From a virus, in the IMG/VR virus record IMGVR_UViG_3300045997_000193, positions 1 to 45,343 of that record: a stretch of DNA of 45,343 nucleotides; one strand, written 5' to 3'. How positions within the stretch are numbered: position 1 is the stretch's first letter; the number at the start of each line of letters is the position of its first letter. Below the pieces are notes generated by a model. That model was not told the DNA's origin, did not search any database, and saw nothing but the letters and a program-made list of their open reading frames with translations. A program made the translations under genes and the position numbers. Positions 2,249 through 19,959 of this stretch are shown piece after piece.

Positions 2249-2277
2249 AATGTAACTCGCCGCGCGCACGCGAGCAA
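2249..2277 (-). promoter_or_regulatory. sigma-70 promoter for the SSB-like gene
   Basis: Minus strand: -35 TTGCTC (2272-2277), 17-bp spacer, -10 TACATT (2249-2254). Unlike most early promoters here, the spacer has no clear TCGCA-N4-TGCGA repeat and there is no upstream 12-mer box. Confidence 0.55.
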
Positions 2278-2352
2278 GTCGATTGCGTGCAGCGGATGGA
2301 TCGGCTACGATTCGACGGCTCGGTGCAAACGCGACCTCCCAAGTAGCGCCAC

Positions 2353-2384
2353 CCCCGAGCCGGCGCCACCTTCGGGTGGCGTCG
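2353..2384. terminator. hairpin after the 70-residue small gene
   Basis: GCGCCACC and GGTGGCG(T) around a TTCG loop form a stable stem directly after the stop at 2385. There is no clear T tract in either direction, so it is either a weak terminator or an mRNA 3'-end stabiliser. It separates this gene from the promoter of the SSB-like gene. Confidence 0.4.
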
Positions 2385-2597
2385 TCATTTCGTGGCGGCA
2401 ATTGTTCCGGTGCTCATCAGCCGCCGAATTTTCTCATCGGCTTGGTCGCGAGTCTTGCGCCATCGCGCGAGCTTCTCGTCGCAGATGCTGCCGCGGCCGT
2501 GCCGGCGCCGGAGTTCTTCGGCGTTGATGCGCGCCTGCAGGTCGGCGCGGAGTGCAGCCCACTCGTCGAGCGGCGTGCTCACCCCTTCGACTTCCAT
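2385..2597 (-). CDS. small hypothetical protein, helical
   Basis: 70 residues, rich in Arg, Glu and Ala, probably one long helical hairpin. The start is uncertain. ATG 2597 lacks a ribosome binding site. GTG 2582 overlaps the stop of the upstream membrane-protein gene (GTGA), which suggests coupling and a 65-residue product. The 3' end carries one copy of the dispersed CCGGAACAATTGCCG motif (2396-2410), read here as TGTIAA. I do not recognise a family. Confidence 0.55.
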   Translation of the reverse strand: MEVEGVSTPLDEWAALRADLQARINAEELRRRHGRGSICDEKLARWRKTRDQADEKIRRLMSTGTIAATK

Positions 2598-2728
2598 TCG
2601 CGGATCAGCTGCTTGGCGCGGCCGGTCGCGAGGATGATCAGCACGGCACCGCCGCCGATGCCGAGCACCAGCGCGACGGCGAACACGACGAGCAGCAACA
2701 GCGGGAGTTCGAGCGTCGAGAGGTCCAT
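2579..2728 (-). CDS. small single-span membrane protein
   Basis: 49 residues from ATG 2728 behind CAGGAGGG. A hydrophobic segment at about residues 8-32 is followed by a basic tail (RAKQLIREWKSKG), so an N-out/C-in inner-membrane topology is likely. It lies directly downstream of a strong leftward terminator (2743-2780) with no promoter between, so its expression may depend on read-through. No family recognised. Small membrane proteins like this can be holins or spanin parts, but nothing here proves it. Confidence 0.6.
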   Translation of the reverse strand: MDLSTLELPLLLLVVFAVALVLGIGGGAVLIILATGRAKQLIREWKSKG

Positions 2729-2742
2729 AATCCCTCCTGTGG

Positions 2743-2780
2743 GAAAAGAAAAACGCCGCGCGATATTCGCCTCGCGCGGC
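2743..2780 (-). terminator. leftward intrinsic terminator
   Basis: GCCGCGCGA and TCGCGCGGC form a 9-bp GC stem. On the minus strand it is followed by TTTTTC and more T/C residues. It lies between the 93-residue gene and the 49-residue membrane protein gene and would act as an attenuator for what follows. Confidence 0.75.
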
Positions 2781-2857
2781 TCCCGATTATGCCCCGCGGC
2801 GATGCGGGTGGGGGAGTCCCGGGGCGATGCCACGCGCCCGGACAGGCTGACTGCGCA

Positions 2858-3139
2858 TCATCGGGTCGCGCGCAGTTCGCCTGAAATTCCCGTCGAACGT
2901 TCACCGACGGGGTCTGAATCGAGTCGTAGGTCGCGCAGGATTTGGGCGCGGTAGTTCTTGCTGCCACGCCAATCCCCTGCCGCCAGCTGCAGCACCGAAA
3001 CCGTCTCACGGCCGCGGGGAAAGCGCAAGTAGACGACGAGGTGCGACCCCCGGCCGCGGCGCCATCGGGTGATGGCGATGCCGAGCGACCGGAGCCACAC
3101 GACGGTTTCGCGTTGCTCCGGCGTTAGGCGCGGGCTCAT
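2858..3139 (-). CDS. small basic hypothetical protein
   Basis: 93 residues from ATG 3139, which overlaps the upstream stop as ATGA. The protein starts MSPRLTPEQRETVVWLRSLG and has a basic strand-rich centre (RWRRGRGSHLVVYLRF). An HTH-like or toxin-like (HicA-size) fold is conceivable but not shown. It is the third gene of a coupled trio read from the 3667-3695 promoter. Confidence 0.6.
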   Translation of the reverse strand: MSPRLTPEQRETVVWLRSLGIAITRWRRGRGSHLVVYLRFPRGRETVSVLQLAAGDWRGSKNYRAQILRDLRLDSDPVGERSTGISGELRATR

Positions 3140-3324
3140 CCGAGCCGCCGCGATTTGTGCGATGCACCGCAGAGGGGGCAATCGAACGTCACGACGTCGG
3201 CGCCTTGAATGTCCTCCTCGATGTCGGTCGGGTGAACGTCGCGCTCGTCGATCAGTTCGCGCCGGCATTCCGCGTAGACGCGGATGACGCGCTCGCCGTA
3301 GGCGTCGTGCGGCGCCGGCCTCAT
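3136..3324 (-). CDS. small protein with a C-terminal CxxC zinc half-site
   Basis: 62 residues from ATG 3324, overlapping the previous stop as ATGA. The C terminus holds CPLCGASH and one further Cys at about residue 20, which suggests metal binding or dimeric zinc coordination. Function unknown. It is translationally coupled with its neighbours on both sides. Confidence 0.6.
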   Translation of the reverse strand: MRPAPHDAYGERVIRVYAECRRELIDERDVHPTDIEEDIQGADVVTFDCPLCGASHKSRRLG

Positions 3325-3620
3325 GACACGACCCGCAGCGGAACGCGGAGCCCGCGGTCGTTGCTCTTGAGCCCCGCGTCGACGAGGGACCCGAACCGCC
3401 AGAGCAGTTTTTCGGACGTGCCGTCGGTCGTCAGCAGCACGATGGAGTCGGTGGTGCGCGCGATGAAGTTCATCGACTGCACCGCGGGGTCGAACGCCCG
3501 CGCGGCCGCGGCGATTTCGCGCGCGCGCTCGATGGTGATGATCGACGCTGGTTCGAGCAAATCCATGATCTCGAACAGCCCGCGCAGATCGGAGCCGGTG
3601 GGGGGGAGCAGTAGGGACAT
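3321..3620 (-). CDS. hypothetical protein, first gene of a three-gene early unit
   Basis: 99 residues from ATG 3620 behind GGAGGTCCCG. The sequence alternates helices and strands, with a hydrophobic core such as DSIVLLTTDG near residue 67. No family is recognised. The gene has its own promoter (3667-3695) with the spacer inverted repeat, upstream 12-mer and GGCGCC leader element, so it is part of the common early regulon. Confidence 0.65.
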   Translation of the reverse strand: MSLLLPPTGSDLRGLFEIMDLLEPASIITIERAREIAAAARAFDPAVQSMNFIARTTDSIVLLTTDGTSEKLLWRFGSLVDAGLKSNDRGLRVPLRVVS

Positions 3621-3636
3621 CGGGACCTCCTTGAAG

Positions 3637-3723
3637 GGCGCCGCGACAACCGCAGCGCATGAGTGAATCATCGCATTTCTGCGAAAGCCGGTCAAGCGGT
3701 TTCGGCGTCGAGCCGACGAACGG
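3637..3723 (-). promoter_or_regulatory. early promoter with spacer operator, upstream box and leader element
   Basis: Minus strand: -35 TTGACC (3690-3695), 17-bp spacer, -10 GATGAT (3667-3672). The inverted repeat TCGCA-GAAA-TGCGA fills the -10 side of the spacer. The upstream box GCCGACGAACGG (plus strand) is at 3712-3723, 16 bp from the -35. The leader holds GGCGCCGCG (3637-3645). The -35 overlaps the TGA of the preceding gene. Confidence 0.85.
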
Positions 3724-4033
3724 CAGCCGGGGTGACGTCGATGAAGATGACGTTGTCCGGGGCGCGCTCGGCGGCGAACCGCGCCGCGCGGAGTTGATTG
3801 GGCGAAACGTAGCCCTTCTCGTTGAGGATCGTCAGCGGCGGGATGCCGTCGGCGTAGCGCGCGAAATACTCGGCCGGCGTGAAGTTCGCCTGCAAGAATT
3901 TCGCGAACGCCTTCGCGTTGGTCTTCGGCCGCGCGTGCTTGAACCGCGCCACGAACTGGTAAGCGCCGTTGGCGTCGACGTGGTGAATGTAGACCTCGGT
4001 CGAGCCGCCTATTGAGAGATTCCATCCGCGCAT
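3692..4033 (-). CDS. hypothetical early protein
   Basis: 113 residues from ATG 4033 behind AAGGAGTCTCAA. It contains many aromatic and basic residues (ARFKHARPKTNAKAFAKFL). An N-terminal strand region (MRGWNLSIGGSTEVYIHHVD) precedes a helical half. No family is recognised. It is the only gene of its transcription unit before the next promoter, which starts inside its stop codon. Its last codons contain the upstream box of the next promoter. Confidence 0.65.
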   Translation of the reverse strand: MRGWNLSIGGSTEVYIHHVDANGAYQFVARFKHARPKTNAKAFAKFLQANFTPAEYFARYADGIPPLTILNEKGYVSPNQLRAARFAAERAPDNVIFIDVTPAAVRRLDAETA

Positions 4034-4053
4034 TTGAGACTCCTTGAGAGAGC

Positions 4054-4135
4054 GCCACGACGACCGCAGCGCATGTAGAGATATTCGCACAATCGCGAAC
4101 CGGCGTCAAGGAATCTCGACGCCAGCCGACGAACG
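4054..4135 (-). promoter_or_regulatory. early promoter with spacer operator and upstream box
   Basis: Minus strand: -35 TTGACG (4104-4109), 17-bp spacer, -10 GAATAT (4081-4086). The spacer repeat is TTCGC-N6-GCGAA. The upstream box is at 4124-4135, 14 bp from the -35. The leader has a variant GGCGCC element (GTGGCGCTC on the minus strand, near 4054-4062). Confidence 0.85.
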
Positions 4136-4136
4136 G

Positions 4137-4301
4137 TCAATCTTCGCCGTCGCTCCAATCCTCCGGATGCGGCATTGGCGGCCCTTTGTAAAACGGATTC
4201 GGATACCAGACATCGCGGTCGGACAGAATCCACGCGTGCTCCGGGCGGTCGCGACCGACTTCGTGCGCCCATTGCGCGTCTGCTTGCTGGATGTAGTTCA
4301 C
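4137..4301 (-). CDS. 54-residue acidic small protein (GTG start)
   Basis: The frame opens at GTG 4299-4301 behind the strong site GAGGAGTT and runs 54 codons to TGA 4137-4139. The protein is rich in Trp, Asp, Glu and Pro, with a motif like VWYPNPFYKG in the middle. No family recognised. It overlaps the upstream-box region of the next promoter at its 3' end and follows the 89-residue gene by 18 bases, so the two are probably co-transcribed. Confidence 0.7.
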   Translation of the reverse strand: MNYIQQADAQWAHEVGRDRPEHAWILSDRDVWYPNPFYKGPPMPHPEDWSDGED

Positions 4302-4319
4302 GGTTTTAACTCCTCGGGG

Positions 4320-4589
4320 TTAGAGATCGATGACGATTTCTTCGCCTGCGCGCTTCCCGGTCTGGAACACGACCTTGAAGCGCGTGGGCTTCGGGCAGCC
4401 GGCGAACGCGGCGAAGTTGACGCCGCCGACCGCCATCGACTGCAGGAGCGCGGCCGCGAATTCGCGAAGCCCCGCCTCGTTTGCCGCGGGGCGGTCCTTG
4501 CCGCCGAGCGAGCCGACTTGCATGGTCGTCGCGGTATTCGGGCCGCGGTTGCAGAACACGACGGCGGGGATGATGTAGGAACGGCCCAT
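4320..4589 (-). CDS. hypothetical early protein
   Basis: 89 residues from ATG 4589 behind GAGGAGAATCAA. It starts MGRSYIIPAVVFCNRG and has a compact mixed composition with two Cys. No family recognised. It is the first gene behind the near-consensus promoter at 4637-4665 and is followed by the 54-residue gene. Confidence 0.65.
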   Translation of the reverse strand: MGRSYIIPAVVFCNRGPNTATTMQVGSLGGKDRPAANEAGLREFAAALLQSMAVGGVNFAAFAGCPKPTRFKVVFQTGKRAGEEIVIDL

Positions 4590-4607
4590 TTGATTCTCCT
4601 CGGTTTG

Positions 4608-4692
4608 CGGCGCCGCGGGTGCAGCGCATGAGTAGAATCATACCGTTCGCACAAATGCGAGTCAAGCGGTTTTCACGCGAGCCGACGAACGG
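4608..4692 (-). promoter_or_regulatory. near-consensus early promoter with spacer operator
   Basis: Minus strand: -35 TTGACT (4660-4665), 17-bp spacer, -10 TATGAT (4637-4642). The spacer repeat TCGCA-TTTG-TGCGA abuts the -35. The upstream box is at 4681-4692, 15 bp from the -35. The leader has the GGCGCCGCGG element (4610-4619). The TGA of the preceding gene lies within the -35. Confidence 0.9.
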
Positions 4693-5003
4693 TCATTCGC
4701 CAGCGGCGCGGTCAGCTGCGGGAACTGCGCGCGGAGCAGATCGATGGCCCGCTGCGATTCCGGCTGGAGCACGCGCTTCCCGCTCGGCGAGCGGACCTGC
4801 GTGAGCAGTAGCGCCGCGACGGCGTCGCGAGCGTAGGCGCGCGCCTCCTGCAGCGACTCGGCGTCGCGCATGTCGATCACGCAGCGGAGCGCCACGGTGG
4901 ACTGCACCGCGCGGCGGCCTTCGGCGAGAAACCGCTCGCGCACCGTGTCGATCAACGCGATGATCGGCGCGTAGGTTTCGGGTGGGCGGTTGGGGGATTT
5001 CAT
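4662..5003 (-). CDS. hypothetical helical protein
   Basis: 113 residues from ATG 5003 behind GGAGGCCAGCC. Predominantly helical (ALIDTVRERFLAEGRRAV, then ARAYARDAVAALLLTQV), with a C-terminal region that reads through the conserved upstream-box DNA of the next promoter (DRSSARVKTA). No family recognised. It follows the 61-residue gene by 13 bases in the same unit. Confidence 0.65.
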   Translation of the reverse strand: MKSPNRPPETYAPIIALIDTVRERFLAEGRRAVQSTVALRCVIDMRDAESLQEARAYARDAVAALLLTQVRSPSGKRVLQPESQRAIDLLRAQFPQLTAPLANDRSSARVKTA

Positions 5004-5016
5004 GGCTGGCCTCCGA

Positions 5017-5202
5017 TTAGGACATGAACGAGATGGAGTCGCGGAGCTGCACCGACAGGTGCTGCAGGTCGCCGACTTGCCCGTAGTGGGCGCCACCGTT
5101 GGCACGGCAGGCGTGCGCCTCGACGAGAATTTCCAGCGCAGCGATGGCTTCGCGGACGCGCTTCAATTCGGCGTGGTAGGCGACGGTGGCTTGATCGAAC
5201 AT
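5017..5202 (-). CDS. small coiled-coil-like protein
   Basis: 61 residues from ATG 5202 behind CGAGGACCTAGCC. Residues 8-30 form an amphipathic helix (LKRVREAIAALEILVE), followed by a short second helix. Function unknown. It has its own early promoter (5254-5282). Confidence 0.6.
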   Translation of the reverse strand: MFDQATVAYHAELKRVREAIAALEILVEAHACRANGGAHYGQVGDLQHLSVQLRDSISFMS

Positions 5203-5219
5203 GGCTAGGTCCTCGGTTT

Positions 5220-5310
5220 GCGGCGCCGCGGAAATCGCAGCACCATGAAACGAATACTACCGTTCGCAAGGTTGCGAGTCAAGCCCCCGCCGGCACCAGC
5301 CGACGAACGG
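5220..5310 (-). promoter_or_regulatory. early promoter with spacer operator and upstream box
   Basis: Minus strand: -35 TTGACT (5277-5282), 17-bp spacer, -10 TAGTAT (5254-5259). The spacer repeat TCGCA-ACCT-TGCGA abuts the -35. The upstream box is at 5299-5310, 16 bp from the -35. The leader has GGCGCCGCGG at 5222-5231. Confidence 0.85.
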
Positions 5311-5526
5311 TCATTTCTGCCGCTTGGCGTCGTCCGCGTTGGCTTCGCCGACGATGCGGAGCTTGGCCGTGGTGGCGCCGAGCCAGAGTTGCAACCGCGG
5401 CTCGCGGCTGTCGGCGTGGCTGGCCGACATCCGGTCGACCGGGACCGGCGCCGATGCCGGCCCGACGAGGATCACGGTATCGGGCGGGAGCTTGCGCAAC
5501 AGGTCGATCAAGTCAGCGGCAGTCAT
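5311..5526 (-). CDS. hypothetical small protein
   Basis: 71 residues from ATG 5526, which overlaps the preceding stop as ATGA. It starts MTAADLIDLLRKLPPDTVIL, a pattern often seen in small phage proteins of unknown function, followed by a beta-rich half. It is the last gene of the long coupled unit that begins at 7081. Confidence 0.6.
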   Translation of the reverse strand: MTAADLIDLLRKLPPDTVILVGPASAPVPVDRMSASHADSREPRLQLWLGATTAKLRIVGEANADDAKRQK

Positions 5527-5723
5527 GCTGCCTCCCTGCCGACGAGCATCCCGAGAAAAAACGCGCAGAGCAACGCGCCCAACAGGCTGAACAACGGCCA
5601 GAGGTTGTCGGGTGCCGCCGCCATCGGCGCGGTAGCCGGGATGACGAGCAGCACCATCGCCAGCAACAGCGTCAGCATCCGGAACACGACGCGCTCGCGC
5701 CGCGACCGCTCTTGCGGGCTCAT
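5523..5723 (-). CDS. small membrane protein with two hydrophobic segments
   Basis: 66 residues from ATG 5723 (ATGA overlap upstream). A basic N terminus (QERSRRERVV) is followed by a hydrophobic segment at about residues 15-34 and another at 43-61 (LFSLLGALLCAFFLGMLVG). The two-span hairpin and size fit a class II holin, but many early phage membrane proteins look the same. No lysis enzyme lies beside it, so the role is open. Confidence 0.6.
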   Translation of the reverse strand: MSPQERSRRERVVFRMLTLLLAMVLLVIPATAPMAAAPDNLWPLFSLLGALLCAFFLGMLVGREAA

Positions 5724-5962
5724 AGCGCCGCTCCCTCCGGGTTGAGCCGCGCGACGTCGGCTTGCGCCGCGACGAACGCCGCGCGAGCGCGAGCGATGCG
5801 CCGCTGCGCGATGATCAGCTGCTTGTGCGCCGAGCGGAACTCGGTCGCGGCCATCCGCAGTTCGCAGTCGGCCAGATGCCGTTCGATCTGCAGCATCCGC
5901 CGCTCGGACTCCGTGCGGTCGACGACCGCGAACTGCGTGTGATCAACGTGACCCGCGGTCAT
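5720..5962 (-). CDS. helical hypothetical protein
   Basis: 80 residues. ATG 5962 is the better-spaced of two adjacent ATG codons behind GGAGG. From residue 20 on it is a continuous Arg/Ala-rich helix, probably coiled coil. Function unknown. The start overlaps the previous gene's end by 20 bases. Confidence 0.6.
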   Translation of the reverse strand: MTAGHVDHTQFAVVDRTESERRMLQIERHLADCELRMAATEFRSAHKQLIIAQRRIARARAAFVAAQADVARLNPEGAAL

Positions 5963-6194
5963 CATTGCCTCCTTCGAGGTAAACGGTTTCGTTGTTGAGC
6001 CAGCGCGTGCGCAACTCGGCGTGGAGCCAGCGCACGGCCATCGTGTAAGTCAGGCGCGGAGCCCGCAAAACGGGCGCCGCGCGCTCCGGCCAGCGGCGGA
6101 AGCTATAGAGCCCCACGCCGCGCGGCCGCGCGCCGTGCGCGGCAATCCACGCCGACTCGTCGACGTAGACTGCGCGGAGTGACCGGCGTGGCAT
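5943..6194 (-). CDS. hypothetical basic protein
   Basis: 83 residues. ATG 6194 overlaps the upstream stop (TGATG). Rich in Arg and Trp (AVRWLHAELRTRWL). No family recognised. Part of the coupled 7081-5311 unit. Confidence 0.55.
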   Translation of the reverse strand: MPRRSLRAVYVDESAWIAAHGARPRGVGLYSFRRWPERAAPVLRAPRLTYTMAVRWLHAELRTRWLNNETVYLEGGNDDRGSR

Positions 6195-6388
6195 CAGCGC
6201 ACCAGCCAGCGCCAGAAGCGCACCAGCGGGCCGGGACGGCGGCGCGCCACGAAGTCAGCGCGGGCCAGCGCCCGGGACGGCGACTCGCGGCCGGCGGCCG
6301 GCGTCGGTTGGGTCCAGCGCGAGCCGCGCGCCAATTCCAGCCGCAGCCAGCGGTCCAGTTCGCGGTCAGATTCCGTAGGTGTCGGCAT
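6194..6388 (-). CDS. hypothetical small basic protein
   Basis: 64 residues. Three ATG codons in a row follow GGAGG. The third (6388) has the best spacing and is chosen. The product is Arg- and Trp-rich. No family recognised. It overlaps the end of the upstream gene by 23 bases. Confidence 0.55.
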   Translation of the reverse strand: MPTPTESDRELDRWLRLELARGSRWTQPTPAAGRESPSRALARADFVARRRPGPLVRFWRWLVR

Positions 6389-6674
6389 CATCATCCTCCG
6401 ATAAAGTGAGCAGGAACGCGAGCATCAGCGCGCGTTGATTGTGGCCGTGCTTCGTGAAGTGCCAGTAGTAGCCGCCGCGATTGCTGACGCCGCCCATCGC
6501 CCGGAGCATGGCCGGGACGCGGACGTAGGCAGTCGACCAGCCCTCACGATTGCGCATGGCGCCGTGGAACGCGGAACACAAGCCGACGCACCCGCCGCGC
6601 CCCGCTCGGAATGAACTGTCTGCGCAAAACTTCTCAATGGCGGTCAGCACCTCGTCGCGAGTCGGGGTGGTCAC
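6366..6674 (-). CDS. hypothetical protein with two early Cys and Gly-rich centre (GTG start)
   Basis: 102 residues from GTG 6674, overlapping the upstream TGA (GTGA). It contains CADSSFRAGRGGCVGLC near residues 17-33 and an aromatic stretch (GGYYWHFTKHGHNQRAL), and ends in an acidic tail. It may be nucleic-acid-binding, but no family is recognised. Coupled with the exported protein gene upstream. Confidence 0.55.
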   Translation of the reverse strand: MTTPTRDEVLTAIEKFCADSSFRAGRGGCVGLCSAFHGAMRNREGWSTAYVRVPAMLRAMGGVSNRGGYYWHFTKHGHNQRALMLAFLLTLSEDDDADTYGI

Positions 6675-7081
6675 ATGACCCCCTTCGCCGGCTTGGCCGG
6701 CTTGGCGTCGGACGCCGCGACACCGGCACCGCATAGCGCGGCGGTGGTGAAGTCGATCATCGTCTTGCCGTCCATCGACCAGAACATCTGCTGCGCTGAC
6801 CCATCGTCAGCGCGGAGCAGCACGCGCCCCTGCTTGAGCCGGCACGACTCGGCCAGCACCGACAGGTGGAACGTTTCCGACTCGCCATCGCCGCCGATCT
6901 TCACGAACTGCGCCAGCACGAACGCGGCACCCGACTTGGTGGTGCCGAAGTTGATCGTCGACACGTCGAGCGCGTAACGGTCGCCGGACGCCGACGTCCC
7001 CGGGACAACGTAGAGCGTCTCGGCCGCGACCGGAGCGGCGGCGAGCGCGGCGAAAACGGCAACTGCGAGTGCGTGTTTCAT
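6671..7081 (-). CDS. exported protein, surface-adhesin-E-like
   Basis: 136 residues from ATG 7081 behind GAAAGGACGCACC. Residues 1-19 form a clear signal peptide with an AAA/AE cleavage context. The mature part has a strand pattern (LYVVPGT...RYALDVSTINFG...FVLAQFVKI) and two Cys that could pair, resembling the small surface-adhesin-E-like domain of proteobacteria. The family call is tentative. It would be periplasmic or surface-exposed. First gene of the coupled 7081-5311 unit, under its own promoter. Confidence 0.6.
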   Translation of the reverse strand: MKHALAVAVFAALAAAPVAAETLYVVPGTSASGDRYALDVSTINFGTTKSGAAFVLAQFVKIGGDGESETFHLSVLAESCRLKQGRVLLRADDGSAQQMFWSMDGKTMIDFTTAALCGAGVAASDAKPAKPAKGVM

Positions 7082-7114
7082 GGTGCGTCCTTTCATCGGT
7101 GAGTGAGCGAAACA

Positions 7115-7143
7115 AGTGTCGCATAATCGCGAGCGGGGCGCAA
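7115..7143 (-). promoter_or_regulatory. early promoter with spacer operator
   Basis: Minus strand: -35 TTGCGC (7138-7143), 17-bp spacer, -10 GACACT (7115-7120). The spacer repeat CTCGCG-ATTA-TGCGA abuts the -10. No upstream 12-mer box is present. Confidence 0.75.
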
Positions 7144-7161
7144 CCCCCGCCCGCGAATTTC

Positions 7162-7857
7162 TTACGCCGCCTCGGCCAGCGGGAGCGCCGCCTCGCGGTT
7201 CTCGACGCGCGCGGTCGCGCGGTCGGCGTCCCACGGCAGCCCGTAGTGCTCGGCGCAGATGGGACCATAGCCGTGATGCACCGAGCGCGCGTCGGTGAGT
7301 GCGCGCCGGCAGAAACAGCACGCGCCGGTGGCGTGACCCGCGGCGACCGCCTCGGCGGTCGGGTCGGCCATGACGGCCGCGAGCGCGCGGTCGAACTCCT
7401 GCCGCGTCGCCTGCGACGGGTGCCAATCGCGCGACGGCCGGAACTCGGTGCCGATCAGCATGCCGGCGTAGTCGCCGCGCGCCTTGACGAACACGACGGC
7501 CTCACCGTTGTAGCGCGAGCGCGACGACGGGAGCGACACGGTGATCCCCGCGAGCGTCGCCGGGAACCGGAGCGCCGGCCGCAGCAAGCCGCGTTGGCGC
7601 GCGCCGTCGAGCAGGCGGTAAACGCGGTCGCGGCCGGCGGCGATGGTGGCCTGCTCGGCGGTCGTGGGAGCGGCCGGGGCGGCCGCGGCGGCCGCGGCAG
7701 CCGCACCGCGAGCGGCGAGCGTTTCCGCCCAATACAACTGCTTCGGCGTCAGCGGCCGCAGGCTCGTCATCCTCCGCAACAGCGACGTCGCGAACGGCCG
7801 GTCGCGCTCGGGCAGGTTCGGGAGCGCCGCGGTTAGCTTGGTGATCAGGTTCGACAT
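7162..7857 (-). CDS. DUF6011-like zinc-binding protein with poly-Ala linker
   Basis: 231 residues from ATG 7857 behind GAGGAGTCACC. An N-terminal helical part is followed by an Ala/Pro linker near residues 50-66, a middle strand-rich domain, and a C-terminal zinc site (ACCFCRRALTD...GYGPICAEHYG, about residues 178-208) like that of DUF6011 proteins found in many phages and actinobacteria. Function unknown; zinc and DNA or RNA binding is likely. It has its own early promoter. Confidence 0.65.
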   Translation of the reverse strand: MSNLITKLTAALPNLPERDRPFATSLLRRMTSLRPLTPKQLYWAETLAARGAAAAAAAAAPAAPTTAEQATIAAGRDRVYRLLDGARQRGLLRPALRFPATLAGITVSLPSSRSRYNGEAVVFVKARGDYAGMLIGTEFRPSRDWHPSQATRQEFDRALAAVMADPTAEAVAAGHATGACCFCRRALTDARSVHHGYGPICAEHYGLPWDADRATARVENREAALPLAEAA

Positions 7858-7873
7858 GGTGACTCCTCGGAAG

Positions 7874-7961
7874 CGGCGCCACGACAACCGCAACGCCATG
7901 ACCGAATAATCGCACAATTGCGAAAGGGGCGCAAGTCATTTCGCACAAAGCCGACGAACGG
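7874..7961 (-). promoter_or_regulatory. early promoter with spacer operator, box and leader element
   Basis: Minus strand: -35 TTGCGC (7929-7934), 17-bp spacer, -10 GATTAT (7906-7911). The spacer repeat is TCGCA-ATTG-TGCGA, abutting the -10. The upstream box is at 7950-7961, 15 bp from the -35. The leader has GGCGCCACG at 7875-7883. Confidence 0.85.
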
Positions 7962-8080
7962 CTTGTAGGGGCGCCCCCGACAGCGGGTCGGCCTTGTAGG
8001 GTTTCCCCCGACAGCCGCGGCACCGGAACAAATGCCGGTCGAGCCCGTAAAACGCCCCACAAGCGCGCCAAAGCAAAGGG
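7936..8080 (-). other. open frame without ATG, possible zinc-finger peptide or decayed gene
   Basis: The minus-strand frame ending at TGA 7936-7938 is open back to the stop of the 67-residue membrane protein. It reads sensibly from a TTG near 8080: GAFYGLDRHLFRCRGCRGK then PYKADPLSGAPL. The CxxC and the composition look protein-like, but there is no ATG, no ribosome binding site, and a terminator hairpin sits at its start. It may be a remnant or an unusual start. A copy of the dispersed 16-bp motif lies inside (8023-8038). Confidence 0.2.
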
Positions 8081-8104
8081 GCGGGGAAACACCCCCGCCC
8101 CCTT
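8076..8104 (-). terminator. GC hairpin terminator after the membrane-protein gene
   Basis: GGGGCGGGG (8078-8086) and CCCCGCCCC (8093-8101) form a 9-bp stem with a short loop. On the minus strand it is followed by TTTGCTTT. It probably ends the 8636-8137 transcription unit. Confidence 0.5.
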
Positions 8105-13467: not shown

Positions 13468-13476
13468 TCATGTTGG

Positions 13477-13749: not shown

Positions 13750-14693
13750 AACGGCGCCTCGGCAACCCCGAACCCCGGACCATCATTCGGCCCCGCGGCG
13801 AACGGGTCGACCGGCGCCGGCACCGGCGGCACAAACGGCGCCGGCTCGATCACCGGGGGCGGCACCGCAGCTGCGGCAGCCGGCACCGCAGCTGCGGGCT
13901 CGGGCGCCACGGCAGGCGCCGGATCGGCGGCAGGCGCCGGCTCGGCCGGCGTCGCGGCCTTCGGCGGCCGCCCACGACGCCGCGGCGGTTCCGCCCCGGG
14001 CGCCGCAGCCGGCGCCGTCCGCTCATTCAGCATCGCCAGCGGGTCCCCGCCGGTCGGCGCCACTTCCGCCGCCCGCGCCGGCGTGACGTCGATCTCGCCC
14101 GCGTCGCGGAGTTCGTCCGTGCTCGCCATGCCGGCGAGAATGTGCGCCGCGTAGAGCCGGCCGAAAAACGACGCCGCGCGCCAGCGCAGCATGATCTCCG
14201 GCATCGTCTGCCACTTCGACCCGGTGCGGCCGAACCAGCCCTCCTTCTTCGCCATCGCGACCGACACCCACGGCCCCTGCAGTTCCAACCCGGTCGAGAG
14301 TTCCACCGACACCGCGCGGCAGCCCCAATCGTCCGCGCCCTCGGTTCCCTTCATCTCGTAGCGCAGCGGCCCGAACAGCCCGCAGCCGTTGATCGCGGCG
14401 ACGATGAACTGCGCCGACCACGACGGGCGCCCCTGAATCACGTTGAGCCCCTGCAGCACCATCATCGGCGGCAGCTTGGCGCGCATCGCGACGTCGAGCG
14501 CGACGAGCACGTTGGGCAGGTTGTCCCGATACTGCGCCGGGACCATCGACGACGCGGCGAGCGCGCGCGCCATCCGCTGTCCATGTTCGAACGCCTGCGG
14601 CGACGAGAAAACGCCGCCCTCGTTGCGCGCGGCGACTTCGGTGAAACGCTGCGTCGCCGCAGCGACCGGCAGATTGTCAGAATGATCGGTCAT
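13746..14693 (-). CDS. recT: RecT-family single-strand annealing protein
   Basis: 315 residues. RecT proteins coat and anneal single strands after end resection. The core (residues 55-195) shows RecT signs: LPPMMVLQGLNVIQGRPSWS, FIVAAINGCG, then WQTMPEIMLRWRAASFFGRL and YAAHILAGM. The C-terminal 100 residues are an unusual Pro/Ala-rich tail with an AT-hook-like RRRGRPPK at about 238-245 and an acidic/Phe end. Start ATG 14693 overlaps the exonuclease stop, giving the classical exonuclease-annealase pair. Confidence 0.85.
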   Translation of the reverse strand: MTDHSDNLPVAAATQRFTEVAARNEGGVFSSPQAFEHGQRMARALAASSMVPAQYRDNLPNVLVALDVAMRAKLPPMMVLQGLNVIQGRPSWSAQFIVAAINGCGLFGPLRYEMKGTEGADDWGCRAVSVELSTGLELQGPWVSVAMAKKEGWFGRTGSKWQTMPEIMLRWRAASFFGRLYAAHILAGMASTDELRDAGEIDVTPARAAEVAPTGGDPLAMLNERTAPAAAPGAEPPRRRGRPPKAATPAEPAPAADPAPAVAPEPAAAVPAAAAAVPPPVIEPAPFVPPVPAPVDPFAAGPNDGPGFGVAEAPF

Positions 14694-15514
14694 CAGAATC
14701 CTTCGGGTGCGCGGGCTTGCGCCCACTTGGGAACGTCGATGGGCATGATCTCGGTCGAGTAACCCGGCCACTCACCGGACGCCGAACAATCGGCGAACAG
14801 CGCGAGCGCGCGCGCGATGTCGGCCTCCGCGGCGAACGTCGCGCGGTTGTCGATGCGGTAGAGCGCGGCGCCGTGCGGCGGCTCCGTCTCGACGGCGATG
14901 ATCACGAACGAATGCGGCACAATGCCTTCGGTTGCGGCGAGCGCCTGCATGTAGAACGCCGCCTGCAGATCGTAGCGGAAATTCCAGATCGACTTCTGGA
15001 ACGCCCCGCGCGACGCATCCGGCGTGGTCTTGATGTCGACGAGAAACGAACGGTCCGGAGCGACGAGGTCGGCGCGCGCCTTGCAATCGACGCCGGTCTC
15101 GCCGTCGGTCCAGAGCATCGAAACCTCCGGCATGCACGAATCGATGATGGCCCGCGCGCGCGGGTGCTGCGCAACCGCAGCGGCGCAGTTCAGCGCCCGC
15201 GCGTAGTCCTCGTTCTTGATGGCGATGCGGCCGGCGGCCCGCTCGTTGAATTCGGTCCACCATGCCTTGCCCGCGGTCGAGCGCCGGTCCGGAGCTTCGT
15301 CGGGGATGACGATGAACGCCGCCTTGCGCTCGTCGGGCTCGTCGAGCAACAGCGAATGCACGACCGAGCCGAACTGCATCGCCGCGGACGGTTCCATCGG
15401 CGCCCGCAGCCATTCGCGGTAGTGCGCCGGGGATTGCAACAGCCGCTTGATCGCGGTCTGCGAAAGCCGGGACAGCGCGTGGTATTCGCGCGCCGGCATG
15501 TCGAAACTCAACAT
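14693..15514 (-). CDS. RecE-like PD-(D/E)XK exonuclease
   Basis: 273 residues. A 5'-3' exonuclease partner of RecT. Motifs are the N-terminal LSQTAIKRLLQSPAHYREWL, GSVVHSLLLDEP (about 49-60), the catalytic VDIKTT (about 163-168) and a following helix with a conserved Gln/Tyr (DLQAAFYMQAL). This matches phage exonuclease VIII/DUF3799-type proteins and their length. ATG 15514 is chosen because it sits 5 bases behind GGGAGGT. A TTG four codons upstream is not needed. Confidence 0.85.
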   Translation of the reverse strand: MLSFDMPAREYHALSRLSQTAIKRLLQSPAHYREWLRAPMEPSAAMQFGSVVHSLLLDEPDERKAAFIVIPDEAPDRRSTAGKAWWTEFNERAAGRIAIKNEDYARALNCAAAVAQHPRARAIIDSCMPEVSMLWTDGETGVDCKARADLVAPDRSFLVDIKTTPDASRGAFQKSIWNFRYDLQAAFYMQALAATEGIVPHSFVIIAVETEPPHGAALYRIDNRATFAAEADIARALALFADCSASGEWPGYSTEIMPIDVPKWAQARAPEGF

Positions 15515-15542
15515 TTGACCTCCCAAGTGAACGAATCCGATG

Positions 15543-15755
15543 TTAGCTCGCGTCGCGCGCGGTCGGCAACGGCTCCGGCGAAATATTTTCGCGCGGCGAG
15601 AATCCTTCGGGGATGACGCACGCCGCGGTCGGGAGCGACCACACTAGCGTGCAATCGGGATAGGGGAGCGCGAGACAGTTCTTCGCCTCGTCGCCCATCT
15701 CCCCGAACGCATCGAAGTGCCAGCGGCAGTTGCCGCAAATCTTCGCGATGGTCAT
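15543..15755 (-). CDS. small four-Cys zinc-binding protein
   Basis: 70 residues from ATG 15755 (ATGA overlap with the upstream gene). CGNCRWH near residue 8 and two later Cys (about 27 and 36, 46) form a probable zinc site, a pattern seen in many short phage proteins. Function unknown. It lies between the J-domain-like protein and the exonuclease and is probably transcribed with both. Confidence 0.65.
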   Translation of the reverse strand: MTIAKICGNCRWHFDAFGEMGDEAKNCLALPYPDCTLVWSLPTAACVIPEGFSPRENISPEPLPTARDAS

Positions 15756-16951
15756 CGCGGGAGCGCGTCGACGTAACGTTCCAGCTTGCGGAAAATGTCG
15801 AACGCGCGCCCATACTTCTCACGGCGATCTTCCGGAACGCGGTCGGGATGCAGCAACCCGAGGATAAAACGGTAATCCTCTTTCGTGACCAGCGGACGAA
15901 TCCCCGAGATCAGGCGCGCGTAATTTTCGGCGGCCTCTTGCTGCTCCGTGGCGCGGCGAGTGTATTCTGGCACCAGTTCGCGAGCGCGCGCATCGGAGTG
16001 CATGAGAAATTCTTCCTGCAACTGCCGGTGCTTCGCGTCGAACGCCGCTTGCAGTTCCCGTTGCTTCGCATCGAACTCCCGCTGCAACCGCCGCGTCTCG
16101 GCGGCAATGGCGCGGTCGAGCGCCGCCTGCGGCCCGCGCGGCCCGGAGCGAATCTGCTCCAACGCGGAAGCGTCAACCTGCGCCGCGAGCGACGGGATCG
16201 TTGCAATCGCGATATCCGCAATGCGCTCGGCTTCCGCGACCGGCAGCCGCTGCGAGAGCGAGCGCGACTCCACGCCCGCGGCCGCCTCGATCTCGCGGCG
16301 CAATTGCGACGCGTGACCGAATGCATGCGGCAACGCCGCGCCGCGCGCAGCGAGCGCTTCCGCGACATTCATGCGCGGCCCGGAAGGGCGAGCAGCCCGC
16401 GGAACGCGAACGGGCTCGGGCTCCGGTTCCGGCGTTGGCACGGCCGCCTGCGGGATAACTGGCCGAGCACCGCGCGGCGGAACGTGATCGCCGCGCGGCG
16501 GAATCGGCTCGGCGGCGGCGGCGCGTTGCTCCCGATGCCGCTGCGCCCGTGGAGTCTGCGAACGCGGAGCGGCGCGCTCGGTCGTCGACCGGCGTTCGCT
16601 TGCGGGGAGCGCGGCGATCAACGCCTGCGCGGCGCGCTCCGACTCCGGCCGCTTCGACTCCCACGCGAAACGATGCAGCGCGAGTTCCATGCGCTCCCTC
16701 GCGCGTCGCGGACCGCCGGCCAATTCGGCGGCGGTGCCGCCGGATTGGCCGCTCCACCGGACCTCGGCGCAGCGGCGCGAAAACTCGCCGCGCGGCGTCG
16801 ATTCCTTGAGCGCGAGCAACTCGTCGCCCGACTTGGCGAGCGCCTGCACGCGAGCGAATCCACTCGCGGCGGCGGCGGCTTCGTGTTCGTTGACGCGAGC
16901 CCACCGGGCGGCGTCGATGTTGGTGACTTCAGCGGTAGCATTCATGGTCAT
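15752..16951 (-). CDS. large coiled-coil protein with C-terminal J-domain-like HPD motif
   Basis: 399 residues from ATG 16951 (ATG 16945 is an alternative). A helical Arg/Glu/Ala-rich N-terminal half is followed by a Pro-rich linker (about 145-185), a second helical domain, a coiled coil with repeated FDAKQRELQ / FDAKHRQLQ units (about 285-315), and a C-terminal segment FILGLLHPDRVPEDRREKYG with HPD at about 368-370. HPD between two helices is the signature of DnaJ-type domains that stimulate Hsp70. If real, it would recruit host DnaK to the replication or recombination complex, as lambda P and DnaJ do in lambda. No named family recognised. Confidence 0.6.
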   Translation of the reverse strand: MTMNATAEVTNIDAARWARVNEHEAAAAASGFARVQALAKSGDELLALKESTPRGEFSRRCAEVRWSGQSGGTAAELAGGPRRARERMELALHRFAWESKRPESERAAQALIAALPASERRSTTERAAPRSQTPRAQRHREQRAAAAEPIPPRGDHVPPRGARPVIPQAAVPTPEPEPEPVRVPRAARPSGPRMNVAEALAARGAALPHAFGHASQLRREIEAAAGVESRSLSQRLPVAEAERIADIAIATIPSLAAQVDASALEQIRSGPRGPQAALDRAIAAETRRLQREFDAKQRELQAAFDAKHRQLQEEFLMHSDARARELVPEYTRRATEQQEAAENYARLISGIRPLVTKEDYRFILGLLHPDRVPEDRREKYGRAFDIFRKLERYVDALPR

Positions 16952-16996
16952 GATTAGGTGCCGCCGCCCGTTATTGGCGAGCGGCGGCAATCCCTA

Positions 16997-17431
16997 CTAC
17001 GATGCGACCGGCTCCGCGGCCGACTGCGCCGCGGGGTTCTGCGCAGCGGCGCTGCGCGCTTCCTGCCGCGCGAGCCGCAGCTGATACGACTGCGAGTGAT
17101 GCCCGGTCAGCTTCCCGGTCTTCGCATCGACCTCGTATTCACGACGCAAAACGCCGTCGAGAATCTGCGACTTCCGAAACAGCGACACGCGCTCGTCTTC
17201 GAGATCGCGCCGCAGGTGCGGATACGCGGCAGCGATCAGCGCTTCGACCGCCTTGATGTTGTCGCCGACCTTGTGGCCGGTGACGCTACCGTTCGCCTTA
17301 AAGGGCGAAATGACGCGAGCGATCTCGGGAATCGAGAGCGCCGCAATCATCGCCGCACGCACGTTCTTCTCCGGCGACTCCGGAGCGCGAGCGTGATGCA
17401 GCGTCGGCACGAACAGGTTGCTAGTTGTCAT
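16997..17431 (-). CDS. hypothetical early protein
   Basis: 144 residues from ATG 17431 behind CAGGAATGGCACC. A helical N-terminal half (EKNVRAAMIAALSIPEIARVI) precedes a region with KAVEALIAAAYPHLRRDLEDE and a basic, Ala-rich C terminus. No family recognised. It is the first gene behind the 17557-17585 promoter and may lead the recombination operon downstream. Confidence 0.6.
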   Translation of the reverse strand: MTTSNLFVPTLHHARAPESPEKNVRAAMIAALSIPEIARVISPFKANGSVTGHKVGDNIKAVEALIAAAYPHLRRDLEDERVSLFRKSQILDGVLRREYEVDAKTGKLTGHHSQSYQLRLARQEARSAAAQNPAAQSAAEPVAS

Positions 17432-17556
17432 GGTGCCATTCCTGAAACTCGTTCGTGAACCGCACGAACAACGGTTGCCGTGGGACCGCACGACGCGGGT
17501 GCTTCTACTGATTGCCGCGGAACCGCCGCGGCGCGGACACTTCAACAACGGAACCG

Positions 17557-17585
17557 ATTGTATATCACTCGGCGCCGAAACGCAA
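17557..17585 (-). promoter_or_regulatory. sigma-70 promoter for the recombination operon
   Basis: Minus strand: -35 TTGCGT (17580-17585), 17-bp spacer, -10 TACAAT (17557-17562), preceded by TATA. No TCGCA-N4-TGCGA repeat and no upstream 12-mer, so it is probably regulated differently from the other early promoters. It overlaps the end of the zinc-finger gene. The 133 bases 17432-17564 otherwise hold only leader sequence. Confidence 0.7.
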
Positions 17586-17738
17586 CCGATTCTTTCGATG
17601 ATTCGCAAGCCTGCACTTCGGGGAGCAAAACAGCGCGAGCGTGATACCCGTAAACATGCGCCCGCAAAACCGACAAGGCTTGCGCGATACCTTTCGCATG
17701 GCGCCCAATTCTGCCGCCGGATGTTTTCCCTTGCTCAT
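17565..17738 (-). CDS. 57-residue zinc-finger protein
   Basis: 57 residues from ATG 17738, overlapping the helicase stop as ATGA. A single zinc site CRFCGRMFTG...FCSPKCRLANHRKNR (Cys pairs about 15 residues apart) with a basic tail resembles treble-clef/Zn-ribbon nucleic-acid-binding mini-proteins. It is coupled to the SF2 helicase and is probably a DNA-binding accessory. Confidence 0.7.
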   Translation of the reverse strand: MSKGKHPAAELGAMRKVSRKPCRFCGRMFTGITLALFCSPKCRLANHRKNRLRFGAE

Positions 17739-19147
17739 GCCGCACCCCCGTTCGCCCGCCCCGCGCGCGCCCGCATCATGCGAAACACCCATCCGGGTTT
17801 GTAGCCGCGCCGCTCGGCCAGCGCGCGCAGTTCCGCCTCGGTGCGCGCCAACCCGATTTCCCGACTCCGCGCCAACCGCCGCTCGGCGATCATCTCCGGC
17901 GTGAGTTCGATCAACTCGCCCGCGACCTCGTCGATCTCGCGCTTGCGGGTTTCGGCCACCGGGAACGCCGCGCCGCAGTTCGTGCAAACGCGCGAGCCCG
18001 ACGCGGACGCCGCGAAACACGACGGGCAAACGCGGACCCCGGGCGGCTCGTCCCGCCGCTTCCGACCGTCAAGCGTCCAATCGCGCTCGTCCTGCGGGAG
18101 CCCATGCCGCGTCGTGTTCTCGGCATGGTCGAGGATGAACGCGTGCGGCTTGCCCGGAGCCGGCCGCAGCGCCCGCCCGACTTGCTGCAGGAACAGCGAC
18201 TCGGACTGCGTCGGGCGCAGCAACAGCGCGGCGCCGCAGACCGGGACGTCGAAGCCCTCGCTGACGAGGTCGACGCTCACCATGACATCGAGCCGACCCT
18301 CGGCCAGATCGGACACGACCGACATGCGGTCGACGTCGGACATCGCGCCATCGATGCGCCGCGCGCGGAACCCGCCGCGCCGGAACGCGTCGACGACGGC
18401 ATCGGCGTGCGCGAGCGAAACGCAAAACGCGATAGCCGGGACCCCGGGGCAAATCCGCCGGTAGTGCGCGACGGCATCGCCGACGACGCGCGTATCGCGC
18501 ACCGCCTCGTCCATCTCGCCGCGGTTGAAATCGCCGGCCGTCGTGCGCACCCCGGTCATGTCGGGATTGACCTCGGCGACGAACACCCGCGGTTGCGCAA
18601 GGAACCCGCCGTCGATCAACTCCTGCATCGACGGCCCCTCGATCAGCCGGTCGAAGTAGCCGCCCGAGCGCACGCCTAGCCCCTTGCCGTCGAGCCGCTC
18701 CGGCGTCGCGGTGACGCCGAGCAGCCGCGCGTTCGGGAACGCCTCGATGATCTTCTGCCACGTTCCGGCGACGGCATGATGCGCCTCGTCGACGATGACA
18801 AGGTCGGGCGGGGCGATGCGCTGCAGCCGCCTGACGACGGTCTGCACCGACGCGACCTGAACATGATGCCCGGTCATCCCGGGCGCCCCCGCCACGATGC
18901 AGCCATGCGGAACGCCCCACGCCGTCAGCGACCGCGACGCCTGCCGCAGCAACTCCGCGCGGTGGACGAGGATCAGCACGCGCTTCCCGCGCTCGACGGC
19001 GCCCTTCGTGATGTAGGAAAAGACCAGCGTCTTCCCCCCGCCCGTCGGGAGCGCGTAGAGCGGCGCGCGACAGCGGTCGCGATAGGCAGCCCGCAGCGCA
19101 TCGACGCCGGCCCGCTGATACGGCCGGAGTGAGAAGTTAACGTGCAT
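17735..19147 (-). CDS. SF2 DEAD/DEAH-box helicase with zinc finger
   Basis: 470 residues, DNA-unwinding or -remodelling ATPase. Motifs: Walker A LPTGGGKT (33-40), motif Ia LVHRAELLRQ (about 60-69), DEAH (120-123), motif III VTATPERLDG (145-154), motif IV-VI with DLVSEGFDVP and QQVGRALRP (about 293-330). After the helicase core come CPSC and CTNC (374-391), a zinc ribbon, and a charged C-terminal helix. The architecture matches phage SF2 helicases such as the UvsW/RadD-like group. Start ATG 19147 overlaps the HTH gene's stop, so both are co-expressed. Confidence 0.88.
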   Translation of the reverse strand: MHVNFSLRPYQRAGVDALRAAYRDRCRAPLYALPTGGGKTLVFSYITKGAVERGKRVLILVHRAELLRQASRSLTAWGVPHGCIVAGAPGMTGHHVQVASVQTVVRRLQRIAPPDLVIVDEAHHAVAGTWQKIIEAFPNARLLGVTATPERLDGKGLGVRSGGYFDRLIEGPSMQELIDGGFLAQPRVFVAEVNPDMTGVRTTAGDFNRGEMDEAVRDTRVVGDAVAHYRRICPGVPAIAFCVSLAHADAVVDAFRRGGFRARRIDGAMSDVDRMSVVSDLAEGRLDVMVSVDLVSEGFDVPVCGAALLLRPTQSESLFLQQVGRALRPAPGKPHAFILDHAENTTRHGLPQDERDWTLDGRKRRDEPPGVRVCPSCFAASASGSRVCTNCGAAFPVAETRKREIDEVAGELIELTPEMIAERRLARSREIGLARTEAELRALAERRGYKPGWVFRMMRARAGRANGGAA

Positions 19148-19364
19148 CGCCCGCCTGCGCTTCGATACGGTCGAGCGCCGCCAGCAACGGCCGGAGCACG
19201 CGCAGCGTCGGCAGGGTTTCGCCAGCGAACCAACGGTAGACAACGGACTGATGCACGCGCGGAGTCGTCTGCGCGCAGACTTCGCCGACGGTTACACCGG
19301 CGCCGTCAATGCGCTCGCGCAGCTTCTCGACAAACGGGTCCAGCTTCGGTTTCTTGGGCGGCAT
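19137..19364 (-). CDS. small Cro/XRE-type helix-turn-helix protein
   Basis: 75 residues from ATG 19364 behind AGGAGAGCGGTC. The helix-turn-helix part reads GVTVGEVCAQTTPRVHQSVV followed by YRWFAGETLPTLRVLRPLL, a pattern of XRE/Cro-like regulators (choose-a-motif helix at about 30-50). It is the only clear small DNA-binding regulator in the genome, and so the leading candidate to bind the TCGCA-N4-TGCGA repeats. Its own promoter (19397-19425) carries a related repeat, suggesting autoregulation. That link is inference. Confidence 0.7.
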   Translation of the reverse strand: MPPKKPKLDPFVEKLRERIDGAGVTVGEVCAQTTPRVHQSVVYRWFAGETLPTLRVLRPLLAALDRIEAQAGDAR

Positions 19365-19396
19365 GACCGCTCTCCTGTGGGTGATTGACCGAGCGA

Positions 19397-19449
19397 AGTC
19401 TACGCGAAAATGCGAAACAACGCAACGGTGCGACCGGCAATCGTTCCGG
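19397..19449 (-). promoter_or_regulatory. promoter of the HTH/helicase operon with two motif types
   Basis: Minus strand: -35 TTGCGT (19420-19425), 17-bp spacer, -10 TAGACT (19397-19402). The spacer has TTCGCATTTTCGCG, a variant of the early operator. A copy of the second dispersed palindrome (CCGGCAATCGTTCCGG, 19434-19449) sits 8 bp upstream of the -35. Confidence 0.75.
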
Positions 19450-19452
19450 TGC

Positions 19453-19482
19453 AAAAGAAAACGCCGGCCGAAGCCGGCGTTC
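19453..19482 (-). terminator. leftward intrinsic terminator
   Basis: ACGCCGGC and GCCGGCGT form an 8-bp stem with a TTCG loop. On the minus strand it is followed by TTTCTTTT. It ends the single-gene unit 19876-19499 just before the HTH promoter. Confidence 0.85.
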
Positions 19483-19498
19483 CGCGGAGCACGTCCGG

Positions 19499-19876
19499 TT
19501 ACTGCGCGGCCACCGGCGACAGCCCGACGATGTGCGACCGGACCGATGCCGCCGCGGCGTAGACCTCGCGCACGCGATGCTCGATCATCGACGCCTCCTG
19601 CACCGCGTTCGCCTTGAACAGCGATTGCGTCTTGCGGTTCAACTCGTCGGCGAACGCCCCGAGCGCCCCGAGCGCGAGCGCGGAGTCGGCGACGTTCGAC
19701 AGCCCGTCGGAGCCGAGCAACGCGACGACGCGCCGAGCGTCGCGCTCGGTTTCGATGGCGGCGGTCCGGATGTTGGCATCCTCGAACCGCTCGGCCAGCT
19801 GCGCGATGAGCCGATACTTCTCGGCCATGAACAGCAGAGCGGCGGCGATGACGTTGAGGTGATTGCTGATGGTCAT
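19499..19876 (-). CDS. hypothetical helical protein under the divergent switch
   Basis: 125 residues from ATG 19876 behind AAGGAGTTTCAC. Entirely helical, Ala/Leu-rich. Begins MTISNHLNVIAAALLFMAEK and ends VRSHIVGLSPVAAQ. No family recognised. It is transcribed alone from the strongest early promoter (TTGACA/TATCAT) and closed by a terminator, so it is probably made in large amount early. Confidence 0.65.
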   Translation of the reverse strand: MTISNHLNVIAAALLFMAEKYRLIAQLAERFEDANIRTAAIETERDARRVVALLGSDGLSNVADSALALGALGAFADELNRKTQSLFKANAVQEASMIEHRVREVYAAAASVRSHIVGLSPVAAQ

Positions 19877-19910
19877 GTGAAACTCCTTGGTGGAAGTGGA
19901 ATGCGCCCCC

Positions 19911-19959
19911 TTGAATTCGAGCGCAAACGGATGATACAATTCGCAGCGATGCGTGTCAA
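19911..19959. promoter_or_regulatory. overlapping divergent promoters sharing one operator
   Basis: Minus strand: -35 TTGACA (19954-19959), 17-bp spacer, -10 TATCAT (19931-19936). Plus strand: -35 TTGAAT (19911-19916), 18-bp spacer, -10 TACAAT (19935-19940). The two -10 boxes overlap by two bases, so both cannot be occupied together. The repeat CGCAGCGATGCG (19942-19953) is in the minus spacer and just downstream of the plus -10, where a bound protein would affect both directions. Confidence 0.85.

Follow-up and report, generated by a model that had tools for sequence, protein, structure and literature searches.

The virus genome of IMG/VR record IMGVR_UViG_3300045997_000193 (45,343 bases, 67% GC; the whole stretch is referred to as the window) carries a repeated operator-like palindrome, TCGCA-N4-TGCGA, inside the promoter spacers of its early region. 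Analysis of this single genome confirmed all 14 leftward promoters at the -10 positions proposed in the initial annotation, and 12 of them harbor the palindrome or a variant of it between the -35 and -10 hexamers (six exact, four with one mismatch, two with two), with P2249 and P17557 lacking it as had been described. Together with a second site at P19397, 13 operator copies are dispersed over 12 separate leftward promoters. We propose, with a probability of about 0.55, that these sites serve an autoregulated early shut-off circuit run by a phage-encoded 75-amino-acid helix-turn-helix (HTH) protein. The 17-bp spacer reported for the whole set applies to 13 promoters, that of P8683 being 18 bp; the leftward orientation is correct but not distinctive, since 60 of the 62 genes called across the genome by a gene caller lie on the minus strand; and the 16-mer TTCGCANNNNTGCGAA, suggested as a search motif, has no exact match in the genome.

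Operator enrichment and register

The exact palindrome occurs six times in the genome (3671, 4647, 5264, 7910, 9784 and 12236), always in one of the listed spacers and outside called genes, against 0.18 copies expected from a first-order Markov model (Poisson P(>=6) about 4e-8). The raw count is unexceptional in a GC-rich genome, where exact gap-4 palindromes of CGCCG, CGAGC and TCGCA number 7, 6 and 6, respectively; the striking part is their location in promoters. In a mechanical promoter scan blind to the motif, TCGCA with a gap of 4 was the only exact palindrome recurring in two or more promoter candidates, and was present in 4 of the 14 minus-strand candidates and in none of the 15 on the plus strand. 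Scanning with a weight matrix built from the six exact sites, with expectations from simulated sequence, returned 13 sites at >=12 bits (3.4 expected; 10 outside called genes, three inside) and nine at >=14 bits (1.0 expected; seven outside, two inside). The condition named in the initial annotation as refuting the finding, equal frequency of the motif in coding sequence, therefore does not hold.

The two registers described for the palindrome are real, with register A found at eight promoters and register B at four, their operator centres differing by 6 bp as calculated from the coordinates. At seven of the eight register A promoters the right half-site TGCGA provides the TGn of an extended -10 element and the first two bases of the -10 hexamer, the remaining case being P19397, where the operator is shifted by 1 bp and this overlap is lost. 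In register B the left half-site starts at the end of the -35 hexamer. Across the 13 sites, the TGCG of the right half is nearly invariant (T in 12, G, C and G in all 13), and N4 and the outer flanks are variable.

Shared descent offers another explanation for the repetition, namely that a promoter cassette was duplicated and carried along a palindrome with no regulatory role. Seven of the promoters, which share a leader hairpin as well as an upstream box (see below), do look duplicated. The operator is, however, also retained at P7115, P12232, P19397 and P19931, which have neither box nor hairpin of the cassette type, and it occurs in a second register while N4 and the flanks vary, making descent alone very improbable.

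Table 1. Promoters, operator sites and associated elements of the early region (register A abuts the -10, register B the -35 hexamer).
Feature	Position	Strand	Promoter sequence, register	Operator	Remarks
P2249	2249-2277	-	TTGCTC-17-TACATT	absent from spacer	ahead of g61 and primase
P3667	3667-3695	-	TTGACC-17-GATGAT, A	3670-3685, exact	
P4081	4081-4109	-	TTGACG-17-GAATAT, A	4084-4099, one mismatch	
P4637	4637-4665	-	TTGACT-17-TATGAT, B	4646-4661, exact	
P5254	5254-5282	-	TTGACT-17-TAGTAT, B	5263-5278, exact	
P7115	7115-7143	-	TTGCGC-17-GACACT, A	7118-7133, one mismatch	no box, no leader hairpin
P7906	7906-7934	-	TTGCGC-17-GATTAT, A	7909-7924, exact	weaker upstream site at 7940
P8683	8683-8712	-	TTGTAT-18-GACTAT, A	8686-8701, two mismatches in left half	
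P9780	9780-9808	-	TTGCGC-17-GACTAT, A	9783-9798, exact	
P12232	12232-12260	-	TTGACC-17-GACAAT, A	12235-12250, exact	no box, no leader hairpin
P13402	13402-13430	-	TTGCAC-17-TATTAT, B	13416-13431, one mismatch	
P13402, extra palindrome	13438			TCGCG-N4-CGCGA	7.0 bits
P17557	17557-17585	-	TTGCGT-17-TACAAT	absent from spacer	ahead of gene run including exonuclease and RecT
75-amino-acid XRE/HTH_3-like protein	19137-19364	-			proposed repressor; HTH_3 match and predicted fold
P19397	19397-19425	-		19401-19416, two mismatches	promoter of the 75-amino-acid HTH gene; spacer operator 10.7 bits
P19397, second operator	19419-19434			one mismatch	over the -35; 12.3 bits; 18 bp from spacer operator
P19931	19931-19959	-	TTGACA-17-TATCAT, B	19940-19955, one mismatch	
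Possible rightward promoter	19911-19940	+	TTGAAT-18-TACAAT		TG before -10; consensus match; faces P19931
Upstream box CCGTTCGTCGGC	3712-3723, 4125-4136, 4681-4692, 5299-5310, 7950-7961, 9835-9846, 13456-13467	-			exact copies
5' leader hairpins	3638-3658, 4052-4072, 4610-4627, 5222-5244, 7875-7897, 8654-8679, 9750-9771, 13372-13392	-			GC-rich stems

Candidate repressor and proposed circuit

The 75-amino-acid protein is the sole product of the genome to match HTH_3 (E 9e-4, below the curated cut-off) and, in a PHROGs comparison covering 43 distinct window proteins or open reading frames (ORFs), matched a CII-like regulator (E 0.011). An AlphaFold2 model built from the single sequence reached a mean pLDDT (predicted local distance difference test score) of 80 in the best case and 67-72 in the other four, and its neighbours in the PDB by Foldseek include the XRE regulators C.BclI, C.AhdI, DdrO, HipB and SinR, with probabilities up to 1.00 and none at E <= 0.001. 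The tandem operator-like sites at its own promoter constitute the best evidence within the genome that this protein may be the autoregulated ligand. It had been named as the best candidate on first inspection, and the HTH_3 match, the predicted XRE-like fold and the tandem operators leave it as the best, if unproven, candidate encoded in the genome.

We favour the following scheme. Many small early genes would be driven by strong promoters of the sigma70 type that are separate from one another, seven of which follow one standard cassette, and after infection all promoters would be active at first. A dimer of the XRE-like protein would bind TCGCA-N4-TGCGA in the spacer and block RNA polymerase, and through the tandem operators at its own promoter the protein would limit its own level. 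With its accumulation, the accessory early modules and the repressor's own helicase operon would be shut together, and the promoters of the exonuclease/RecT run and of the primase, free of a spacer site, would remain open.

Dispersed operators are documented for immunity repressors, with 22 C1 operators in P1 (excerpts of PMC8546580) and up to 30 stoperators in mycobacteriophages of cluster A (excerpts of PMC6550527), and the phage could likewise be temperate, episomal or otherwise, with the HTH protein or another one silencing every early module in the manner of P1 or L5. The operator at 19940-19955 may sit between back-to-back promoters as in lysogeny switches, and ParB-like domains occur in two proteins. 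The promoters of the primase and RecT/exonuclease genes, which would be prime targets of an immunity repressor, nevertheless have no spacer operator, and the candidate is a bare HTH domain. Searches of the genome returned no match at E <= 1 to PF00589 (integrase) or PF00239 (serine recombinase), ParA and transposase families being outside the search, and no S24-type repressor. We thus regard lysogenic immunity as unlikely and favour autoregulated early shut-off, because integrase, resolvase and S24 matches are lacking and the exonuclease/RecT and primase promoters carry no spacer operator.

Several observations weigh against early shut-off by the 75-amino-acid protein. HTH_3 was the one DNA-binding family searched genome-wide. 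Similarity of the protein to the XRE antitoxins associated with this operator elsewhere is weak (best E 0.038), and tblastn found no relatives of it in viral contigs, phages or plasmids. The weight-matrix scan places a weak operator-like site at 17602, upstream of the supposedly exempt P17557. Terminator-like sites are barely above chance (22 vs 14.4 expected, sd 3.7), and as almost all genes are also co-directional, read-through could defeat the logic of exempt promoters. Finally, a small, diverged HTH protein of Bordetella phage PBb002 (9006-9221; 27% identity over 63 residues) is encoded two genes ahead of a related helicase, and exact TCGCA-N4-TGCGA is absent from the 30.8 of its 41.5 kb that were read, so an HTH-helicase neighbourhood does not imply a dispersed-operator circuit. 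Between 14700 and 20060 the same phage carries numerous small genes in which a AAGGAAAGGA start region recurs.

Other parts of the promoter cassette

The second operator of P19397, the possible rightward promoter, the upstream boxes and the leader hairpins had escaped the initial annotation. All seven exact copies of CCGTTCGTCGGC lie on the minus strand, each ahead of the -35 hexamer of a different operator promoter, at distances of 15, 15, 15, 16, 16, 25 and 26 bp. Only exact copies are informative, because with two mismatches allowed the window holds 40 copies vs 23 expected. The 10-bp step in distance, about one helical turn, suggests a DNA-binding site on one face of the helix, and the box is probably a second protein-binding site, although the phasing argument is no more than suggestive because five of the seven boxes are likely recent duplicates. 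We rejected an RNA hairpin at CCGTTCGTCGGC, as few certain pairs were apparent by eye and the 10-bp step favours DNA binding.

Leader hairpins are found at eight promoters, the seven with a box and P8683. Relative to transcript starts predicted from the -10 element and a CAT initiator according to the CAT-initiator rule, the stem begins 2 nt away in five leaders and 3-4 nt away in two; that of P8683 fits less well, starting 4 nt after the -10 and thus before a +7 start. A leader peptide opened by the CATG at five predicted starts was rejected, a preferred initiation sequence being the simpler explanation. In stems drawn by hand, 68 of 68 pair cells are standard (with one bulged base of P9780 left out), and all substitutions preserve pairing via G-U. 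No pair is altered on both sides, so covariation was dropped as an argument and the support comes from retention of pairing alone. Fold z-scores of single leaders are modest, with only P8683 among the eight below -2 (-3.25) and P9780 at -0.01. Since 5'-terminal stem-loops stabilise E. coli mRNAs (titles cited in PMC3997798), the hairpins of the seven transcripts, placed 2-4 bases from their predicted 5' ends, would by analogy probably protect short mRNAs, with P8683 an eighth and poorer fit.

The operator at 19940-19955 abuts the rightward promoter-like site and would cover its start. A match of this grade can be due to chance; seven such matches were found in the region vs 1.3 expected. Downstream lie two small rightward ORFs (19989-20168 and 20203-20574), neither of which has a PHROGs match.

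The operator in other genomes

A collection of genomes was searched with the pattern TTGAC-N5-TTCGCA-N4-TGCGA-N2-AT. Because register A and exact half-sites are built into it, the 25 matches (about 7 expected by chance from base-count arithmetic) are an undercount whose common register is imposed by the pattern; the new information lies in the neighbouring genes only. According to text patterns, a Gp49-type toxin gene begins within about 30 nt at 17 of the 25 loci and an XRE gene is in range at 16, and two pairs of Gp49 with HTH_31/HTH_3 were confirmed by Pfam. The XRE gene was not picked up at four toxin loci (L186, L190, L194 and L195). No toxin was recognised at L193, L196, L200, L201, L205, L206, L209 and L210; an XRE gene is still present at L193, L206 and L210, an HTH-like protein was recognised by eye downstream at L200, a CI-like repressor is encoded at L201 (Lactobacillus kullabergensis), and the hits at L196, L205 and L209 seem to be due to chance. 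The Gp49-toxin/XRE-antitoxin operons among these loci (L186-L210; Nitrospirota, Acidobacteriota, Planctomycetota and others) have a common promoter-operator design, TTGAC-N5-TTCGCA-N4-TGCGA.

In viral contigs the register A pattern was found at 24 loci, including similar low-GC promoters at L037, L048, L049, L054, L056 and L059, four of which were read in detail. At the low-GC prophage loci L037, L048, L056 and L059 the site stands ahead of a CI-like repressor gene, assigned to HTH_3 by Pfam at L048. L047 is promoter-like, with no repressor gene in the stretch read, and the site of L045 falls within an ORF. The remaining 16 loci have one exact site each, several being near-copies of each other. 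Because the palindrome precedes both Gp49/XRE operons and CI-like repressor genes, it behaves elsewhere like an operator of the XRE family.

These findings raise the question of whether the ligand is a host XRE regulator, such as the antitoxin of a Gp49-type operon, that reads or represses the phage. The -35/operator/-10 arrangement ahead of toxin and XRE genes is in line with such a ligand, as is the clustering of hits, 18 of the 25 titles naming Nitrospirota, Acidobacteriota or Planctomycetota. Yet the outer bases in GTTCGCA-N4-TGCGAAC, counted by eye, are present in 16 of the 25 chromosomal sites vs one of the 13 phage sites, which disfavours binding of both by the same protein and points to a probable difference in specificity, and the phage encodes an HTH protein itself, with tandem operators at the promoter of that gene. 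On balance a host ligand seems quite unlikely. LexA, considered because of the phylum clustering, was discarded since the downstream genes are toxin-antitoxin and not SOS genes.

A further reading, to which we assign very little weight, is that the phage regulon and the chromosomal Gp49/XRE operons use one operator code, in which case the 13 phage operators could titrate the host antitoxin or be silenced by it; a toxin-antitoxin repressor would then directly sense or slow the early transcription of the phage. No match to Gp49 (PF05973) was found in the phage genome at E <= 10.

Search for relatives of the phage

None of the searches turned up a relative that carries the cassette. Megablast of positions 2000-20500 against 50,697 phage records gave no match, and the top-listed terminase match, from a Marinobacter phage, is 45% identical. 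The helicase query found no relative in viral contigs. The upstream-box pattern is present there at no fewer than 120 loci (at least 120), with the exact operator in none among the matches listed, and the register B pattern at one locus, a lone site between two large structural-looking ORFs with no good -10, which was judged to be chance. For 36 RecT relatives, none of the stretches examined has the exact operator. Only one of these 36 RecT-bearing stretches (L019) has the same palindrome, TTGCA-N4-TGCAA, in three or more promoter candidates (three); it was dropped as a relative, being AT-rich and of different context. TTGCA-N4-TGCAA occurs in the AT-rich phage stretches L015, L017, L018 and L019, with one copy each about 15 bp from a ATATTTGCAA word, in a similar place.

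Comparison with known systems

In phiC31, conserved inverted repeats termed CIR overlap many early promoters and are bound by one repressor. T4-like phages have a repeated, mobile cassette of a sigma70 early promoter and a stem-loop, found between genes; the cassette described here adds an operator, and its stem-loop is located at the predicted transcript start. The Gp49-toxin/XRE-antitoxin promoters have the same operator core between -35 and -10 (a position fixed by the search pattern) but belong to single operons and differ in the outer G and C, and the phage lacks a Gp49 match.

P1 resembles the present phage in having a single repressor with many scattered operators; it differs in that its operator is a 17-bp asymmetric sequence and that a corepressor, Lxc, and an inhibitor, Coi, take part (excerpts of PMC8546580), whereas here a short palindrome lies within the promoter spacer, the candidate is a 75-amino-acid HTH protein, and no lysogeny genes were found. 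The stoperators of L5 and cluster A likewise repeat one site many times, with most copies pointing the same way relative to transcription (excerpts of PMC6550527), but are asymmetric, occur also within genes and stop elongation (excerpts of PMC6550527 and PMC9283540), the palindromes here being concentrated in promoters. The SAS/ESAS elements of cluster K also precede many genes, but are located at translation starts with a proposed role in translation initiation (excerpts of PMC3203893). No description of this operator was found in a limited literature search that included parts of PMC5906591, which is weak evidence of absence.

The initial annotation had presented a distributed repressor circuit as a departure from the usual phage design. 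Such a circuit fits the anatomy best and is partly supported, but the departure was overstated in light of P1 and cluster A. Circuits of this kind are known in other phages, and it is the compact, standardised form that is unusual. In our judgement, what is new is the combination, in a repeated cassette, of a spacer operator that doubles as promoter sequence with a phased box and a 5' hairpin, from which the exonuclease/RecT and primase promoters are exempt. The region provides a compact example from nature in which a single small repressor may control about a dozen promoters by way of a site that is itself part of the promoter, and a ready set of similar promoters varying in operator register and strength. 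Moreover, the occurrence of one operator core in three settings (the phage, CI-like prophage repressors and Gp49-XRE operons) hints at where cross-talk of phages with toxin-antitoxin systems might be sought.

Genome organisation and additional observations

The phage genome has an exact terminal repeat of 127 bp at its ends, and no tRNA genes were found in it. The structural genes, for terminase, protease, capsid, portal, tape measure and tail proteins, span roughly 42 to 25 kb and are followed by the operator-promoter region, at the far end of which a D5-type primase begins and runs over the contig ends. Early proteins recognised are an SF2 helicase, an exonuclease VIII-like protein, RecT, an amidoligase, a gamma-glutamyl cyclotransferase, a ParB-like-domain protein and a nuclease. 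The genes for the amidoligase (12536-13354) and the gamma-glutamyl cyclotransferase (11610-12194) are near each other in the early region, a proximity that suggests gamma-glutamyl chemistry during infection.

Beside the primase, an AT-rich gap at 44330-44560 contains repeated ACCCGGCA-type words, which by eye look like the iterons of a replication origin. Repeats of CAATTGCC are present at 42290-42975, and a minus-strand ORF at 42475-42918 resembles an HNH endonuclease by eye, with no PHROGs match. The portal-protein ORF (35558-37729) has a long C-terminal part that is collagen-like or tail-fibre-like.

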